This document shows positions 16,787 through 63,617 of a stretch of 64,000 nucleotides of DNA, one piece after another (position 1 is the stretch's first letter; each line of letters starts with the position of its first letter). The position numbers and the translations under genes were made by a program. The notes under the pieces are model-generated. The model saw nothing but the letters and a program-made list of their open reading frames with translations, was not told where the DNA came from and searched no databases. The stretch comes from Dehalococcoidia bacterium (lineage in GTDB: Bacteria > Chloroflexota > Dehalococcoidia > Bin125). Location: assembly GCA_022825855.1 (NCBI GenBank), contig JAJDWB010000008.1, positions 1-64,000 on the forward strand, read 5' to 3'.

Positions 16787-17143
16787 ATGTCCCGCCAGAT
16801 TGACCAGTGCGAACTGCAGGCGCGGGTGACTCCCGGCTCGGAGGCGTGGTCGACGGTGACCGGTCTGAGCGATGCGGAGTGGACCGGCTTTGCGCCGGCG
16901 GGCTGCGGCGTCGACCAGGGGCGGGTGATCGCGCTGCCGGCGGACGCGTCGGCGGAGCTGCTGGATGCGGACGCGCCGGACCGGATGTGGCGGCTGGTGG
17001 ACGGCGCGGGCGAGGCGCTGTTCGAGTTTCTTGGTTATGTCGACGATCGGCGGCCGCGGAAGCGGGGCTACATCATCCTGGGGATCAGCACGACGCCGGA
17101 GCTGCTGGGTTCGTGGAGCGAGCTGCAGCCGGCGGCGACGTAG
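16787..17143 (+). CDS. Small hypothetical protein
   Basis: A 118-residue soluble, acidic protein that I do not recognise. It begins MSRQIDQCELQARVTPGSEA, has the segment DRMWRLVDGAGEALFEFLGY in the middle and ends in a beta-rich RGYIILGISTTPELLGSWSE. The ATG at 16787 has TTGGAGG about 6 bases upstream, supporting this start over the longer open frame. It lies 31 bases after the macro-domain gene and 53 before the cobalamin adenosyltransferase. It could be a small regulatory or accessory protein, but nothing in the sequence shows which. Confidence 0.6.
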   Translation: MSRQIDQCELQARVTPGSEAWSTVTGLSDAEWTGFAPAGCGVDQGRVIALPADASAELLDADAPDRMWRLVDGAGEALFEFLGYVDDRRPRKRGYIILGISTTPELLGSWSELQPAAT

Positions 17144-17184
17144 GGTTGATTCGTCGCGGCGGTCTGATCGGACGCGCTCGCAGA

Positions 17185-17190
17185 TACACT
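17185..17190 (+). promoter_or_regulatory. Leaderless-type -10 box TACACT
   Basis: TACACT ends exactly six bases before ATG 17197, the spacing expected if transcription begins at the start codon. Confidence 0.55.
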
Positions 17191-17196
17191 CTGGGC

Positions 17197-17778
17197 ATGC
17201 CGCACTACACGCGTTCGGGGGACGACGGTTCGACGACCCTGTGGGGCGGCGGCCGGATTGGCAAGGACCATCCGCAGCCGGAGGCATACGGGGCGATCGA
17301 CGAGGCGTCGTCGGCGCTGGGTCTGGGTCGGGCGCTGTCGACGGATCCGCGCACGCGGGAGATTGCGATCGAGATGCAGCGGCGTCTGTATCTGATCATG
17401 GCGGAGCTGGCGGTGGCGCCGGACAAGCCGATCCCGGAGGACTTTGCGACGAGCGCCGAGCACGTGGACGAGCTTGAGGCGTGGGCGGCGGAGCTGGAAT
17501 CGCTGGCGCCACCGCCGCAGGAGTTCGTGCTGCCCGGGGGGTCGCCGGGATCTGCGGCGCTGGACCTGGCGCGGACGACGATCCGGCGGGCGGAGCGTGA
17601 GGCGGTGCGGCTGCGCGGTCATGGACATCCGGTCAACGAGGAGACGATCCGCTATCTGAACCGGGCGTCGTCGGTGCTGTTCGACCTGGCGCGGTACGAG
17701 GAGCAGCAGGCAGGGGTCGAGGCGATTCGCTCGCGCGACGCGGGCCCGTCGACGGCCGCCGGCGCGGCGGCGCAGTGA
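17197..17778 (+). CDS. pduO: ATP:cob(I)alamin adenosyltransferase, PduO type
   Basis: A 193-residue enzyme that transfers the adenosyl group of ATP to cob(I)alamin to make coenzyme B12. Family segments are TRSGDDGSTTLWGGGRIGKD near the N-terminus (ATP-binding loop), YGAIDEASSALGLGRAL, FVLPGGSPGSAALDLARTTIRRAERE (the conserved R-x-x-x-R-R-A-E helix) and NEETIRYLNRASSVLFDLAR. No ribosome site is present; a TACACT box six bases before the ATG suggests a leaderless message. Its stop overlaps the start of the beta-propeller gene, so the two are probably co-transcribed. Confidence 0.9.
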   Translation: MPHYTRSGDDGSTTLWGGGRIGKDHPQPEAYGAIDEASSALGLGRALSTDPRTREIAIEMQRRLYLIMAELAVAPDKPIPEDFATSAEHVDELEAWAAELESLAPPPQEFVLPGGSPGSAALDLARTTIRRAEREAVRLRGHGHPVNEETIRYLNRASSVLFDLARYEEQQAGVEAIRSRDAGPSTAAGAAAQ

Positions 17779-56398: not shown

Positions 56399-57577
56399 AT
56401 GTGGGACGCAATCGTGATCGGCGCCGGACCGGCCGGCGCAACCGCCGCCCGTCGGCTCAGCGACGCTGGCGCCTCGACCCTGATCCTGGAGAAGCAGCCG
56501 CTGCCGCGCTACAAGGCCTGCGGCGGCGGGGTGCCCGCCCGCACGCTGGAGTTGCTGGACGGACTCGACATCTCACCGGTCAGCGAGGGCTATGTCGAAA
56601 CGATCGACGTCTCGCGCTTCGGCCGCCACCAGTTCCGCAAGACGTCCGAACGTCCGCTGGCCTGGATGGTGATGCGCGACCGCTTCGATCAGTTCCTGAC
56701 TGAATTGGCCGTCGAATCGGGAGCGAACCTGCGCGACGCGACACCGGTGCAATCGATCGCCGAGCAGGACGGCTGCTACGAGGTCGAGACGCCGACGGGA
56801 TCGGTCGGCGCCCGTCACCTGCTCGCCGCCGACGGCGCGACCGGCCCGACCGCGCGCTGGCTCAACATTGCGTCCGCCCCGACCCGCAGCGCCGCCTATG
56901 AGGTCGAGGTCGCCGCGCCCTCTGCCGCCCTCGAGCACTGGCACGGCGCCGCCAACGTCGATGTCGGCTACCGACCCTGGGGCTACGGCTGGGTCTTCCC
57001 CAAGGCCGGCAAGCTCTCGGTCGGCGTCGTGACCTCGCCCGGGCGCGGCCGCTCGATCCGCAAGCAGACCGACCGATATCTCTCCCGCCTCGGTCTCGCC
57101 GACGCCGACGTGCTCAAGGTCCAGGGCCACCCGATCCGCTACCGCCGCTCATCCGGCGAGCCGGTCGCCAGCGAGCGCGCCCTCCTGCTCGGCGACGCCG
57201 CCGGCCTGGCCGACGAGTTCACCGCCGAGGGCATCGCCTACGCCGTCCACTCGGCCAACCTCGCCGCCGAGGCCGTGCTCACGTCCGACAATCCCGCGTC
57301 CGCCTACACGCAGTCGGTCAACCGGCAAATCCAGCCCGAGCTCGACGCCGCCCGCACCATCTCCCGCCTCTACTACTGGTGCGTCACAACCTGGCCCTGG
57401 CTCGCGCTCAAGACATCGAAGCACGTCAACTACCTCTGGCGAGCCTTCTTCCGCGTCATGCGCGGCGACTCCACCTACGCCGACGAGCTGGCACGAGTCC
57501 CCGTGATCCTCTCTCCCCCCGCTCCGCGGGGGGAGATGTCGCGGAGCGACAGAGGGGGGCCGCCCGCAGCGGACTAG
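56399..57577 (+). CDS. Geranylgeranyl-reductase-family flavoprotein
   Basis: A 392-residue FAD protein that reduces isoprenoid chains in known relatives. The FAD motif AIVIGAGPAGATAARRLSDAG is at the N-terminus, followed by LEKQPLPRYKACGGGVPART, the hallmark of the family. YGWVFPKAGKLSVGV and ALLLGDAAGLADEFTAEGIAYAV complete the cofactor pocket. The final about 20 residues (LSPPAPRGEMSRSDRGGPPA) are encoded by the family B repeat B2, so the true C-terminus was probably replaced by the element. A role in saturating polyprenyl chains (menaquinone or others) is likely. Confidence 0.88.
   Translation: MWDAIVIGAGPAGATAARRLSDAGASTLILEKQPLPRYKACGGGVPARTLELLDGLDISPVSEGYVETIDVSRFGRHQFRKTSERPLAWMVMRDRFDQFLTELAVESGANLRDATPVQSIAEQDGCYEVETPTGSVGARHLLAADGATGPTARWLNIASAPTRSAAYEVEVAAPSAALEHWHGAANVDVGYRPWGYGWVFPKAGKLSVGVVTSPGRGRSIRKQTDRYLSRLGLADADVLKVQGHPIRYRRSSGEPVASERALLLGDAAGLADEFTAEGIAYAVHSANLAAEAVLTSDNPASAYTQSVNRQIQPELDAARTISRLYYWCVTTWPWLALKTSKHVNYLWRAFFRVMRGDSTYADELARVPVILSPPAPRGEMSRSDRGGPPAAD
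57511..57559 (+). repeat. Family B two-hairpin repeat, copy B2
   Basis: This copy lies inside the 3' end of the flavoprotein gene. It matches B1 (9916-9964, minus strand) over 49 bases except for two changes, a-to-g and t-to-c, that pair with each other in the small hairpin (gtcac/gtgac versus gtcgc/gcgac). Confidence 0.9.
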
Positions 57578-57580
57578 GCT
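57575..57580 (+). promoter_or_regulatory. Leaderless-type -10 box TAGGCT overlapping a stop codon
   Basis: TAGGCT includes the TAG stop of the flavoprotein (57575-57577) and ends seven bases before ATG 57588. Confidence 0.45.
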
Positions 57581-57587
57581 GAGTGCC

Positions 57588-57947
57588 ATGCCGTGGCTAG
57601 TGCTGGATCACCTTGGAGTCGGTCTCTTTGAGTTCTTTGGGATCTTGTTCCTCTTCTTCGTGGCCCCGTCACTCGTTGGCGCCGTCGCCGGCACTTGGAT
57701 CATGTGGGGGAAGGATCGCAGCCTCTTCCTCGGCTTTCTGATGGGCTTCGCCATCGGGGCGGGAGGCACGGCGATATCGGTTGCGCTAGCGTCGCAGACC
57801 GATCTTCTTGAAACGTACGCCGTGGGAATGGCGCTGGCGGTTGCCGTGCTCATCGTGATCGCGAGATATCTGCCCAAGGGCAAGCTGTACCAGCTACCCA
57901 GACCAACCGCCCCGCACAAACCAGACCGATCAAGCCCTCACCAGTGA
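57588..57947 (+). CDS. Small multi-pass membrane protein
   Basis: A 119-residue protein with three hydrophobic segments (FEFFGILFLFFVAPSLVGAV, LFLGFLMGFAIGAGGTAISV, and YAVGMALAVAVLIVIARYLP) and a proline-rich polar tail. I do not recognise a family. Its opening PWLVLDHLGVG resembles AAWLVLDHPSLG in the small membrane gene at 59378, so it may be a distant member of the array downstream. It lies 10 bases after the flavoprotein gene. Confidence 0.65.
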   Translation: MPWLVLDHLGVGLFEFFGILFLFFVAPSLVGAVAGTWIMWGKDRSLFLGFLMGFAIGAGGTAISVALASQTDLLETYAVGMALAVAVLIVIARYLPKGKLYQLPRPTAPHKPDRSSPHQ

Positions 57948-57997
57948 CCCGCCACCCGAGCAACCGCAACTACACTAAACACACCAATCGGAGCGAC

Positions 57998-58726
57998 ATG
58001 TCCAACCGCGATGCCCACACCTCGACTCAGACCCTGGTCCGCTTCCGCCTGCCGGACCCGCCTGAACGGCATCCCGACGAAGTGACCTCCTACGACTACG
58101 TCCACCTCGTTGGCAATCCGCACTTCCTGGCGCGGCACTTTGGCCGACCCGAGTCCACGCTCGTCACCGCCGAGAAATTCCTCACCGCCCAACTTCGCTC
58201 GCGGCCGGTGCGCGTGCCCGACCTGCTGATCGCCTTCGATGTCAATCCAGACTTGTACTACGAGCAGAACGGCTATGTGATCTCCGATCAGGGCAAGCCG
58301 CCCGACTTCATCCTCGAAGTGGCGTCGCCGAGCACGGCGCGGGTCGACACCGTCGACAAGCGCGACGACTACGCCGCATTCGGAGTCAGGGAATACTGGC
58401 GCTTCGACCACACTGGCGAGTCGCACGGCACGCGACTGGCCGGCGACCGCCTGGCCGGCGACCGCTACGAGCCCATCGACATCGTCGAGATCGCGCCCGG
58501 CGTCCTGCAGGGCGAGAGCCAAGCCCTCAACCTCTGGCTCCGCTGGGAGGACGGAGAACTCGGCTGGTACGACCCGGCGACGGGTGAGCACATTCCAACG
58601 TTTGACAGCACGCAGGCCGAGTTAGCCGCCGAGCGCGCAGCCATCGATGCCGAACGCGAAGCCCGCCAAGCTGCGGAGCAACGAGTCCGCGAGCTGGAAG
58701 CCGAACTCCGCCGCCTGCGGGAGTGA
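57998..58726 (+). CDS. Uma2-family (PD-(D/E)xK fold) protein
   Basis: A 242-residue protein of the Uma2/DUF820 group, which has a restriction-endonuclease-like fold and unknown role. The fold motif is visible as RVPDLLIAFDVN followed by PDFILEVASPSTARVDTVDKRDDYA, with catalytic-type D and E-x-A residues, and FGVREYWRFD. A perfect 15-base tandem duplication (58436-58450 and 58451-58465) gives LAGDRLAGDR. The last 60 residues are a coiled coil (ELAAERAAIDAEREARQAAE). ATG 57998 is preferred; the ORF opens at 57944. Confidence 0.8.
   Translation: MSNRDAHTSTQTLVRFRLPDPPERHPDEVTSYDYVHLVGNPHFLARHFGRPESTLVTAEKFLTAQLRSRPVRVPDLLIAFDVNPDLYYEQNGYVISDQGKPPDFILEVASPSTARVDTVDKRDDYAAFGVREYWRFDHTGESHGTRLAGDRLAGDRYEPIDIVEIAPGVLQGESQALNLWLRWEDGELGWYDPATGEHIPTFDSTQAELAAERAAIDAEREARQAAEQRVRELEAELRRLRE
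58436..58465 (+). repeat. 15-base perfect tandem duplication in the Uma2 gene
   Basis: The unit ctggccggcgaccgc occurs twice back to back and adds five residues (LAGDR) without shifting the frame. Confidence 0.9.
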
Positions 58727-58769
58727 GCTTCCCAGCTCGACGCCTTCCCGCCTCACGAGGATGCCCCGC

Positions 58770-58997
58770 GTGGAAGTGTTTGACCCGGACTGGGTTCGAC
58801 TCGTTCTGAACGGCACGCCCCTCGGAGCGCGCTTGTTCCTCTTGGCGTTGGTCTTGTTCCCTGTCGCGCTTGTCCTCGGAGTCATCGGAATACCGGTCGT
58901 GTGGCTCTTCGAGTGGGGCTGGAAGGGGTTTGTGCTCACGACATTGGCGGCGTGGGTACTCATCTTCCTCTTCTTGTCCCTTCTCAGTTATGCATGA
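58770..58997 (+). CDS. Tiny membrane protein, array member 1
   Basis: A 75-residue protein with two hydrophobic segments (LFLLALVLFPVALVLGVIGI and FVLTTLAAWVLIFLFLSLL). It starts MEVFDPDWVRLVLNG, closely matching MELFDLDWFRLVLDG of the next gene. GTG 58770 is chosen because an aggat-type site and this GTG align in all three array members; an ATG at 58761 is also possible here. Function unknown. Confidence 0.6.
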   Translation: MEVFDPDWVRLVLNGTPLGARLFLLALVLFPVALVLGVIGIPVVWLFEWGWKGFVLTTLAAWVLIFLFLSLLSYA

Positions 58998-59378
58998 TGA
59001 CTCGCCGACGCCACACACTCGTTCATCCCGTCCTCCGCATGACGCCGCCAACCGTCCACTAGGATTACCCGCGTGGAACTGTTCGACCTGGACTGGTTCC
59101 GGCTCGTTCTGGACGGCCCGGGCGCCGAGTACGTCTTGGCCGTGCTTGCCTTGCCTGTCCTGGGCATCCCAATTCTCCTCGCCACGGTCTTCGCCGTAGT
59201 TATGCGCTACTTGTCCGCCTGGCAGGGCGTTGCGATCATTGCTGCGGCGCTGGTGTTGTGGTTCATTACTGTTGTCATCACTGCAGGTAACTGACTGAAC
59301 CATGCCTCGCCGACCCCGCACGCCCCCACATCCCGCCCTCCGCATGACGCCGCCAACCGTCCAATAGGATGCCCAGCG
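58997..59378 (+). repeat. Repeated intergenic segments of about 305-base period before the small membrane genes
   Basis: The segments starting at about 58997 and 59301 both read atg(a/c)ctcgccga...catcccg(t/c)cctccgcatgacgccg and ccaaccgtccaaTaggat. The third start of the series, at 59612, is the real beginning of nth (atgcctcgccgacg). The unit therefore seems to be one small membrane gene plus a copy of the nth 5' end, duplicated in tandem. Confidence 0.65.
59073..59294 (+). CDS. Tiny membrane protein, array member 2
   Basis: A 73-residue protein with two hydrophobic segments (YVLAVLALPVLGIPILLATV and WQGVAIIAAALVLWFITVVI). Its start and upstream sequence align with members 1 and 3; only GTG is available as a start here, which fixes the choice for the others. 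Function unknown. Confidence 0.6.
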   Translation: MELFDLDWFRLVLDGPGAEYVLAVLALPVLGIPILLATVFAVVMRYLSAWQGVAIIAAALVLWFITVVITAGN

Positions 59379-59605
59379 TGGAACTCCCGACCATCGCCGC
59401 CGCCTGGCTCGTGTTGGACCATCCGTCCCTCGGGGAAGTTCTACCCGTCTTCGTCGTGGTGTTTCTCGGTATCTCGCTTCTCGTCGGAGCGGCCGGAGCT
59501 GCGGTCGTACACTTCCTCGAAGGATCTATCCGGAAGGGCTTCTTGATCACGGCCATCGCGACATTCCTGATACTGCTCGTCGGCTTGATCGTTATCTGGC
59601 GCTGA
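59378..59605 (+). CDS. Tiny membrane protein, array member 3
   Basis: A 75-residue protein with two hydrophobic segments (VLPVFVVVFLGISLLVGAAG and GFLITAIATFLILLVGLIVI). It shares the aggat...gtggaact start region with member 2, and the 65 bases before it are nearly identical to those before member 2. Function unknown. Confidence 0.6.
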   Translation: MELPTIAAAWLVLDHPSLGEVLPVFVVVFLGISLLVGAAGAAVVHFLEGSIRKGFLITAIATFLILLVGLIVIWR

Positions 59606-59611
59606 CAGATT

Positions 59612-60301
59612 ATGCCTCGCCGACGACGCACACCCCCACCCCTCCGACCCACCGCGATCATCAACCGTCTGATCCGCGAAGCACCCCTCACGCCCTGGCG
59701 CGCCACCAACGATCCCGTCACCGAACTCGTCCTCACCCTCCTCTCCCAGAACACCTCCGACACCAACTCCGGCCGCGCCTTCCAGCAGCTCCTCAAGCGC
59801 TACCCCGATTGGGACGCCGTACTCGACGCGCCGGTCGAGGAGTTGGAGCAGACGATCCGCCCCGGCGGTCTGGCCCGCACCAAGGCCCCGCGCATGCAGG
59901 CGCTGCTCGCCCAGCTCCGCGAGCGGCTCGGCCCCGATTGGGACGCCTCACGCCTCGCCGACATGCCCATCGACGAGGCCAAGCAATGGCTCACCGAGCT
60001 GCCCGGCGTCGGACCCAAGACCGCCGCCTGCGTCCTGCTCTTCTCGCTCGGCCGGCCCGCCCTGCCCGTCGACACCCACGTTCACCGCGTCGCCCAACGC
60101 CTCGGCCTGATCGGCTCGAAGGTCGCCGCCGTCCCCGCCCACGACATGCTCGAAGCCCAGCTCCCGCCCGACCGGTACTACGACTTCCACGTCACCCTGA
60201 TCCGCCACGGACGCCGCGTCTGCCACAAGCAGCGCCCAAACTGCGCCGAGTGCGTCCTGCTCGACCGCTGCCCCGCCGCCGACGACTTCCGCTACGCCTG
60301 A
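59612..60301 (+). CDS. nth: Endonuclease III
   Basis: A 229-residue base-excision repair glycosylase/AP lyase. The helix-hairpin-helix is ELPGVGPKTAACVLLF with the catalytic lysine, and VDTHVHRVAQRLGLI carries the catalytic aspartate. The C-terminal iron-sulfur loop is CHKQRPNCAECVLLDRC (C-x6-C-x2-C-x5-C). The N-terminus (MPRRRRTPPPLRPT) is basic and proline-rich, and its coding sequence is partly copied upstream of the small membrane genes. It removes oxidised pyrimidines. Confidence 0.93.
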   Translation: MPRRRRTPPPLRPTAIINRLIREAPLTPWRATNDPVTELVLTLLSQNTSDTNSGRAFQQLLKRYPDWDAVLDAPVEELEQTIRPGGLARTKAPRMQALLAQLRERLGPDWDASRLADMPIDEAKQWLTELPGVGPKTAACVLLFSLGRPALPVDTHVHRVAQRLGLIGSKVAAVPAHDMLEAQLPPDRYYDFHVTLIRHGRRVCHKQRPNCAECVLLDRCPAADDFRYA

Positions 60302-60315
60302 CCCACTCGTCCGTC

Positions 60316-60337
60316 GCCCCGCGCCCCGACGCGGGGC
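60316..60337. terminator. GC hairpin after nth
   Basis: gccccgc (60316-60322) pairs with gcggggc (60331-60337) 15 bases after the nth stop. There is no T tract, so factor-independent termination is only possible. Confidence 0.4.
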
Positions 60338-60438
60338 CCAGACCTCGACGATCGAGCGCAGCGCAACCGTCATCCTCAACGCCTGACCCCGAAGCTGTAG
60401 CCTCATCTCCGTCTGAAGCCTGCACCAGGAGTCGAATC

Positions 60439-63386: not shown

Positions 63387-63490
63387 GCCCCCGCGTAGGC
63401 GGGGGTCGCCCCCGCGCAGCCTGCCCCTGGCGTGAACAGGGGGCGGGGGCCCCGCGCAGCCTGCCCCTGGCTTGAACAGGGGGCGGGGGC
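63387..63490. repeat. Family D: hairpin plus two 40-base tandem repeats
   Basis: A hairpin cccccgcg-tag-gcggggg type (about 63389-63406) is followed by two 40-base units, 63411-63450 and 63451-63490, differing at one base (cgtgaac versus cttgaac). Each unit is itself a palindrome (gcctgcccctg...cagggggcggg). The second unit shares a 24-base string with the minus strand of 10857-10880. Confidence 0.85.
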
Positions 63491-63617
63491 CGCACGCGCT
63501 AGACGCGAGTAACCCACAACTGAAACCTGCTCAACAGTTCTACCCAATCTCTGTTTGACATCTCGCCGCCATCACCGCAACATCAGAACACATGTAACAC
63601 AACGCGAGGAGCCGCCC

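Follow-up and report, generated by a model that had tools for sequence, protein, structure and literature searches.

Arrays of small membrane-protein genes and remnants of the nth start at a variable reductase-nth junction in a genus of Dehalococcoidia

Integron gene-cassette arrays are rows of small single-gene units with related short separators and varying content. At the start of a housekeeping gene, larger insertions have been described. Tn5253 of Streptococcus pneumoniae is described as a 64.5-kb conjugative element at rbgA, with an 83-bp attB (shorter variants exist), 20 bases of which lie in the coding sequence; this site is duplicated and the coding sequence is left whole (PMC8571831). 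The dusA-specific integrative elements and SXT at prfC, as described in PMC8409611, are integrase-bearing elements in the 5' end of a gene and supply it with a new N-terminal coding sequence. Here, we analyzed an array of much smaller units in front of an nth-like gene of a Dehalococcoidia genome. A literature search found no paper on this array, and the word "tandem" occurs 0 times in the main text of a paper on sponge Chloroflexi (PMC6306507).

The window, i.e., the whole stretch of 64,000 nucleotides that was analyzed, belongs to genome G000. Its variable interval extends from 57577 to 59612, bounded by a gene for a geranylgeranyl-reductase-like protein and one for an nth-like HhH-GPD glycosylase (Table 1). 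The reductase gene is the left border of the variable site, and it is the upstream neighbor of nth in relatives too. We use "nth" as a label for the HhH-GPD gene, whose match to the NCBIfam equivalog nth (TIGR01083, 3.3e-32) reached 111.7 bits against a cut-off of 211.7; its match to MonDNAglycDR2438 (2.4e-54) was likewise below the cut-off, with 184.2 bits against 400. The first-pass annotation had described three ORFs for two-segment membrane proteins starting at 58770, 59073, and 59378, and the ORF coordinates confirmed these starts and their spacing of 303 and 305 bases. We named these genes X1, X2, and X3. Alternative in-frame ATG codons are found at 58761 for X1 and at 59369 for X3. The X2 leader contains AGGA, judged by eye to be a Shine-Dalgarno-like site.

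Table 1. Features of the reductase-nth interval and its borders in the window
Feature	Position	Strand	Evidence
FAD-dependent reductase, geranylgeranyl-reductase family (GGR)	56399..57577	+	NCBIfam TIGR02032 3.2e-61, above cut-off
M, 119-aa membrane protein	57588..57947	+	three hydrophobic segments
Uma2-family protein	57998..58726	+	Pfam Uma2 2.7e-13; PADLOC PDC-S03 8.8e-14
X1, 75-aa two-segment membrane protein	58770..58997	+	X-profile 2.4e-23 (X1 itself a profile member)
nth' remnant a, 21-codon mini-ORF	58997..59062	+	21/28 bases as in nth start; BLAST weak, E 0.04-0.13
Leader before X2, overlapping mini-ORF a	59026..59072	+	42/47 identical to X3 leader
X2, 73-aa two-segment membrane protein	59073..59294	+	relatives in G005 (E 1.1e-16) and G010 (E 1.1e-14)
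nth' remnant b, 21-codon mini-ORF	59302..59367	+	25/28 bases as in nth start, E 7e-5
Leader before X3, overlapping mini-ORF b	59331..59377	+	42/47 identical to X2 leader
X3, 75-aa two-segment membrane protein	59378..59605	+	44% aa identity over 63 residues with G009 protein
Intact nth-like DNA glycosylase of the HhH-GPD type, endonuclease III superfamily; right border	59612..60301	+	Pfam HhH-GPD PF00730 8.2e-15

Two further genes lie between the reductase gene and X1. M shares 61 of 98 residues with a protein at the equivalent place in G005. The X-family profile (see below) matched it weakly, with an E value of 0.0015 in the window genome and 0.013 in G010, and M is possibly a distant relative of X. 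The Uma2-family (PF05685) gene is an inserted gene at the reductase-nth site, with an equivalent position in G011, G014, G006, and G013; it showed no sign of relation to X. Its PADLOC model is a phage-defence candidate. The Uma2 gene of the window is 88% identical to that of G014 at the DNA level, the reductase genes being 81% identical, and it contains a perfect 15-base internal duplication at 58436-58465. Farther downstream, two copies of a 40-base GC-rich repeat with 97% matches are found at 63410-63491.

We then compared the linkers between the X genes with the start of nth. The first 28 bases of nth matched the linker at 59302 in 25 positions and that at 58997 in 21. Both linkers begin with an nth remnant (nth'), as had been noted, but the exact string atgcctcgccgac is present only in the second, the first having atgactcgccgac. 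The number of remnants is two and not three: none precedes X1, and the Uma2-like gene ends there. The ATG of remnant a overlaps the stop codon of X1 (TGATG). The two linkers form a repeat (58997-59080 and 59302-59385) identical in 71 of 84 bases; a shared stretch corresponding to its last 60 bases, first called nearly identical, does exist, but its identity is 52/60. A second repeat (58754-58817 and 59057-59120) is 83% identical. For X2 and X3, the 71/84 identical linker bases stand against 25/57 identical third positions in the gene bodies (Fisher p 5e-7), which upholds the earlier observation that the linkers are much more alike than the genes.

From the window, 47 ORFs of ≥150 aa that do not overlap were taken, and for 46 of them the 1.2 kb upstream could be scored for a copy of the ORF's first 28 bases. 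Among these 46, nth had the best copy (25/28), and in a random control, 3 of 1,500 positions reached at least 24/28. The runner-up, with 22/28 upstream of the ORF at 17068-17628, was considered as a second gene with a 5' copy and dropped, because its translation indicated a probable false ORF. When the 5' part of nth was searched against its own genome, it matched at 59302 (E 0.0016) and otherwise only over 16 to 38 bases with E values of at least 0.02; no second copy of the array was found in this genome at an E value of ≤0.001. Remnants also occur in other species (see below), and the claim that the duplicated unit includes the nth start is supported.

Nine X proteins were collected from the window and its relatives. 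They are 70 to 82 aa long, depending on the start codon. They have two hydrophobic segments and, with exceptions, a head resembling W-x-LVLD[G/H]. In the structure model of X2 (mean pLDDT 77.8, pTM 0.48), a hairpin of two helices is accompanied by a short helix, and a PDB fold search with this model gave 0 matches. X is thus predicted to be a two-helix membrane hairpin. For X1 to X3, no match exceeded a curated Pfam or NCBIfam cut-off, PADLOC gave none below an E value of 0.13, and the best E value anywhere was 0.056; four X proteins of relatives had no Pfam match at an E value of ≤0.1. In a drawn sample of 294 genomes of the class, the X profile reached an E value of <1e-20 in only six members of the genus. 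Since the profile was built from the nine X genes themselves, these matches exist by construction, and it is the absence elsewhere that is informative. The sole additional match among the 294 genomes was a weak one in G024 (E 8e-4), restricted to profile positions 22-61.

In the genomes searched, X was found only at the reductase-nth junction and in only one genus. Such a distribution would suit a birth of X in place, from a duplicated 3' end of the reductase gene or from nth read in another frame. However, in 18 tests comparing the nine X units with their own reductase and nth genes, none stood clear of shuffled sequences, and the lowest was matched by 17 of 200 shuffles. We consider a de novo birth very unlikely.

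The relationships among the X proteins bear on how the array was formed. A recent tandem triplication in the window genome alone, of a unit made of X and the nth 5' end and followed by rapid protein divergence, would account for the even spacing of the genes, for the alike linkers, and for the missing nth' before X1, as expected for the oldest copy. However, X2 is nearer to the X proteins of G005 (51% aa identity) and G010 (47%) than to X1 or X3 (34% each), and X2, G005, and G010 formed one group with a support of 96/96. In addition, the dS values of 0.81 for X1-X2 and 1.11 for X2-X3 are too old for a recent event, and nth' is also found in G009, G010, and G002. A recent local triplication, which we regard as improbable, is largely refuted by the cross-species relationships of X, and a simple tandem array private to this genome was not supported. 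The array is not a recent local triplication; it is older and wider than first described.

Among X2, G005, and G010, dS was 0.69 to 1.29, in the range of the seven nth pairs tested (0.54 to 1.26); thus, X2 is about as old as the species. The corresponding dN/dS values were 0.33, 0.48, and 0.68, a protein-coding signal; X2 evolves fast, with some constraint on the protein. Older paralogues are what X1 and X3 look like, although the tree did not settle their placement. In the explanation that we prefer (see below), the X genes are real, fast-evolving genes for predicted two-helix membrane hairpins. The first X unit of G002 upstream of nth (G002a, L058) would start at ACG rather than ATG or GTG, so it may be losing function or using a rare start.

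To see how the site varies, the reductase-nth junction was compared in 15 genomes of the genus. It was plain in four, carried one to three X genes in six, carried other genes in four (G006, G008, G013, and G014), and was cut by a contig end in one (G007, the reductase side of which lies beyond that end and which was hence counted apart). G018 was dropped since it gave no orthologous nth match. At the plain junction, found in G001, G003, G004, and G012, the reductase stop overlaps the nth start as TGATG or TAATG. The X-bearing layouts were reductase-nth'-X-nth in G009, reductase-nth'-X-nth'-X-nth in G002, reductase-M-like-nth'-X-nth in G010, reductase-M-like-X-nth in G005 (the same order as in G010, with no recognizable nth'), reductase-Uma2-X-nth in G011, and reductase-M-Uma2-X1-nth'-X2-nth'-X3-nth in the window genome. 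The four family outgroups with this nth gene also have the reductase gene directly upstream; from its stop to the aligned nth start there are 47 nt in G015, 59 nt in G016, and 164 nt in G019, and in G017 the stop overlaps the nth start. The plain junction is probably ancestral. Sister species differ in content, with X present in G005 and absent in G001, and present in G010 and absent in G012 (each pair supported by 100/100 in the tree). Support in the deep forks of the species tree is weak, and the tree of reductase plus nth is poorly resolved.

The G009 layout was read again in the named record MPNM01000001 ("Chloroflexi bacterium bin125"). The genus has 12 further named records, all of Chloroflexota or Dehalococcoidia assembled from metagenomes. 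Isolate names, together with a sponge paper that mentions bin125 (PMC5649159), suggest that many of these genomes are sponge derived. Just upstream of nth, G014 and G006 (L053 and L054) have other small genes, the products of which have zinc-ribbon-like parts with paired cysteines after one or two membrane segments; these had no Pfam match above the cut-off. The reductase gene of the window ends in a C-/G-rich palindromic stretch (57510-57575) that alters the C terminus, and CCCTCTCCCCGCGGGAGAGGG hairpins are found at the insert border in G009 and G005. The two observations suggest that a small repeat is dispersed close to the points of insertion.

Remnants of the nth start accompany X in several species. 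Four were clear by BLAST (E ≤1e-3): those of G009, G010 (7.5e-11 with G004 nth as the query), G002a (2e-5), and G000b, i.e., remnant b of the window. Two more, G000a (best E 0.036) and G002b (best E 0.010), were weak but correctly placed, and in G005, BLAST recognized no nth' at the junction. Among the eight genomes without X and with a readable interval, no nth-start match was found between reductase and nth at an E value of ≤1e-3. In total, nth' is present for six of the nine X genes and absent for X1 and those of G011 and G005, so it is not universal. In G009, nth bases 1-74 recur at position -436 with 90.5% identity (E 2e-24), followed by X and then the whole nth. In G009 and G002, 42 nt separate the last aligned reductase codon from the ATG that follows, as in the plain junctions of G012, G001, and G004. 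The overlap between the reductase gene and an ATG is kept in G009 and G002, but this ATG is the start of nth', and X and the intact nth follow. Therefore, the remnant occupies the place of the nth start of plain-junction species.

This arrangement raises the possibility of a site-specific integration, in which the nth start would be the attachment site and leader, X, and nth start would form a tiny cassette moved by a recombinase encoded elsewhere, as for the elements at prfC, dusA, and rbgA. The insert of G009 is flanked by two copies of about 75 nt of nth 5' sequence, with the nth reading frame left whole, and presence or absence varies between sister species. Tn5253 at rbgA is likewise described as duplicating the gene start and restoring the coding sequence (PMC8571831). 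Against such an integration, no recombinase was recognized among the translated ORFs of the reductase-nth interval in 13 genomes. A Pfam scan of the window's own genes showed none either, and 10 proteins inserted at the junction in eight relatives, other than Uma2 and two of the X proteins, had no Pfam match above the cut-off. Remnant length is also variable (about 28 to 76 nt), with no fixed core, although decay may blur the ends; the remnant ends near base 43 in G010 and G002 and near base 76 in G009, and its end is indistinct in G000. Site-specific integration is, in our judgment, quite unlikely.

Each ORF at the nth' position was then examined for translation and decay. All seven, including the degenerate one of G005, are open over 17 to 36 codons. 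The mini-ORF stop overlaps or falls inside the X start region in G002b and G002a, lies 10 nt before X in G000a and G000b, and lies 32, 38, and 102 nt before X in G005, G010, and G009, respectively. Four of these mini-ORFs could thus be coupled to X in translation, which is doubtful for the remaining three. Differences between nth' and nth (synonymous/other) were 7/1 in G009, 9/2 in G010, 6/7 in G002a, 12/6 in G002b, 2/5 in G000a, and 2/1 in G000b. The pattern in G009 and G010 resembles that between the nth genes of different species, for which all pairs of 13 species summed to 742 synonymous and 217 other codon differences. With differences that are mostly synonymous, the remnants of G009 and G010 have not been decaying freely, as neutral debris of a duplication in place would. 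Either their starts diverged as working nth starts before joining, or the remnant was kept as a mini-ORF; as far as the substitutions indicate, selection on the remnant or a foreign origin would be needed.

The first-pass annotation had viewed alike linkers with diverged genes as the reverse of normal constraint. Alike linkers and diverged bodies were indeed found, but the pattern, which also occurs in other species, is better described as a conserved head (the leader and the first ~16 codons) and a diverged tail. For X2-X3, the leader (47 bases) is 89% identical and the rest 49%; for X1-X2, the first 16 codons are 83% identical and the rest 46%; for G002b-G005, the leader is identical in 41/46 bases, the rest is 46% identical, and third positions agree in 13/52. 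Where two proteins have the same residue, the codon was identical in 8/10 cases in the head vs. 6/13 in the tail for X1-X2 and in 10/12 vs. 9/19 for G005-G010. Of the 18 pairs listed, 16 had the higher share in the head (98/162 vs. 96/274 when summed by hand), the exceptions being X1-G005 and X2-G009; these pairs are not independent and are those, out of 36, with at least 8 equal head residues. Shuffle tests between the group of G000 and G009 and the group of G002, G005, and G010 were mostly negative, with the exceptions of G009-G002b (0/300), G000_1-G002b (3/300), and G009-G005 (12/300).

The head-tail pattern can be explained by shared descent with recombination or by constraint on the leader, and as a pattern of sequence it would fit the two alike. 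Under constraint rather than recombination, nth' and the leader would be a translation-coupling or regulatory element kept alike by selection. The open frames, the four stops at or within 10 nt of the X start, and the mostly synonymous differences in G009 and G010 are consistent with such an element, and so is a 24-base leader core in which G005 differs from either G002 leader at one position. However, the other three mini-ORFs end farther away, the nth' peptides of G000 and G002 have decayed, and open frames of this length would be expected in GC-rich DNA. The X2 leader is only 44 to 50% identical to those of G005 and G010, which also counts against a single shared leader, and an Rfam scan of 57400-60400 gave no match above the gathering score. 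We consider such constraint unlikely to be the explanation. The leader was also considered as a dispersed promoter or repeat; this was rejected, as the 24-base core (≤3 mismatches) occurs at three places in 15 genomes, all at this junction.

The explanation that we prefer, with moderate confidence, is that the reductase-nth junction is a recurrent site of insertion and duplication, where units composed of an nth 5' remnant, a leader, and X are reshuffled by recombination between short repeats. In an early event, a small membrane gene X with its leader would have been placed behind the first bases of nth, and an intact nth start would have been kept or re-created on the far side of X, giving reductase-nth'-leader-X-nth. 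Recombination between short direct repeats, namely the nth' and nth starts and the leaders, could then multiply, exchange, and remove units. The outcome would be one to three X genes or none, with leaders alike and gene bodies unlike. Homologous recombination would be the probable motor. In layouts like those of G009 and G002, X would be lost by recombination between nth' and nth, and the plain junction would come back. In G005 and G010, another gene adjoins the reductase gene, and such recombination could not restore a plain junction; the differences between sisters (G005/G001 and G010/G012) thus need separate gains or a replacement of the region through recombination between species. X would probably be translated from its own Shine-Dalgarno-like sites, the mini-ORF stop being near enough to help in some copies, and X proteins are presumably made.

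A bolder version, which we put forward as a speculation with a low chance of being right, is that the first 40 to 75 bases of nth serve as the docking site of a miniature cassette system. Units of ~300 bp, each with one hypervariable membrane-hairpin gene, would enter, leave, and recombine at this site, the nth start being re-created with every insertion, and would give each lineage its own small membrane-protein repertoire at one address. Should the preferred explanation hold, the start of a housekeeping gene could be a reusable home for single small genes with no need for a large mobile element. The plain site and the sites with one, two, and three units would form a clear series for the gain, multiplication, and loss of genus-specific microproteins. 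Short gene-start remnants in arrays also carry a risk of being misannotated as start sites.

Compared with the known systems, the junction resembles Tn5253 at rbgA in that an insert near the start of a housekeeping gene duplicates tens of bases and the coding sequence stays whole. Unlike Tn5253, the insert measures ~300 bp per unit, lies in tandem, and has no recombinase seen. The dusA and SXT elements put in a divergent N terminus, whereas nth' and nth here both resemble the nth of the genus. Among the features of 5'-end integrative elements, duplication of the target 5' end with a whole coding sequence was found in G009; a site-specific recombinase of its own and a fixed crossover core were not. 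By analogy, the array may work somewhat like 5'-end integrators, yet with two features failing, it is not classed among them. As in integron arrays, small single-gene units stand in a row with related short separators, and their content varies. Unlike in integron arrays, no intI was recognized among the interval ORFs, and the separators derive from the downstream gene, nth.
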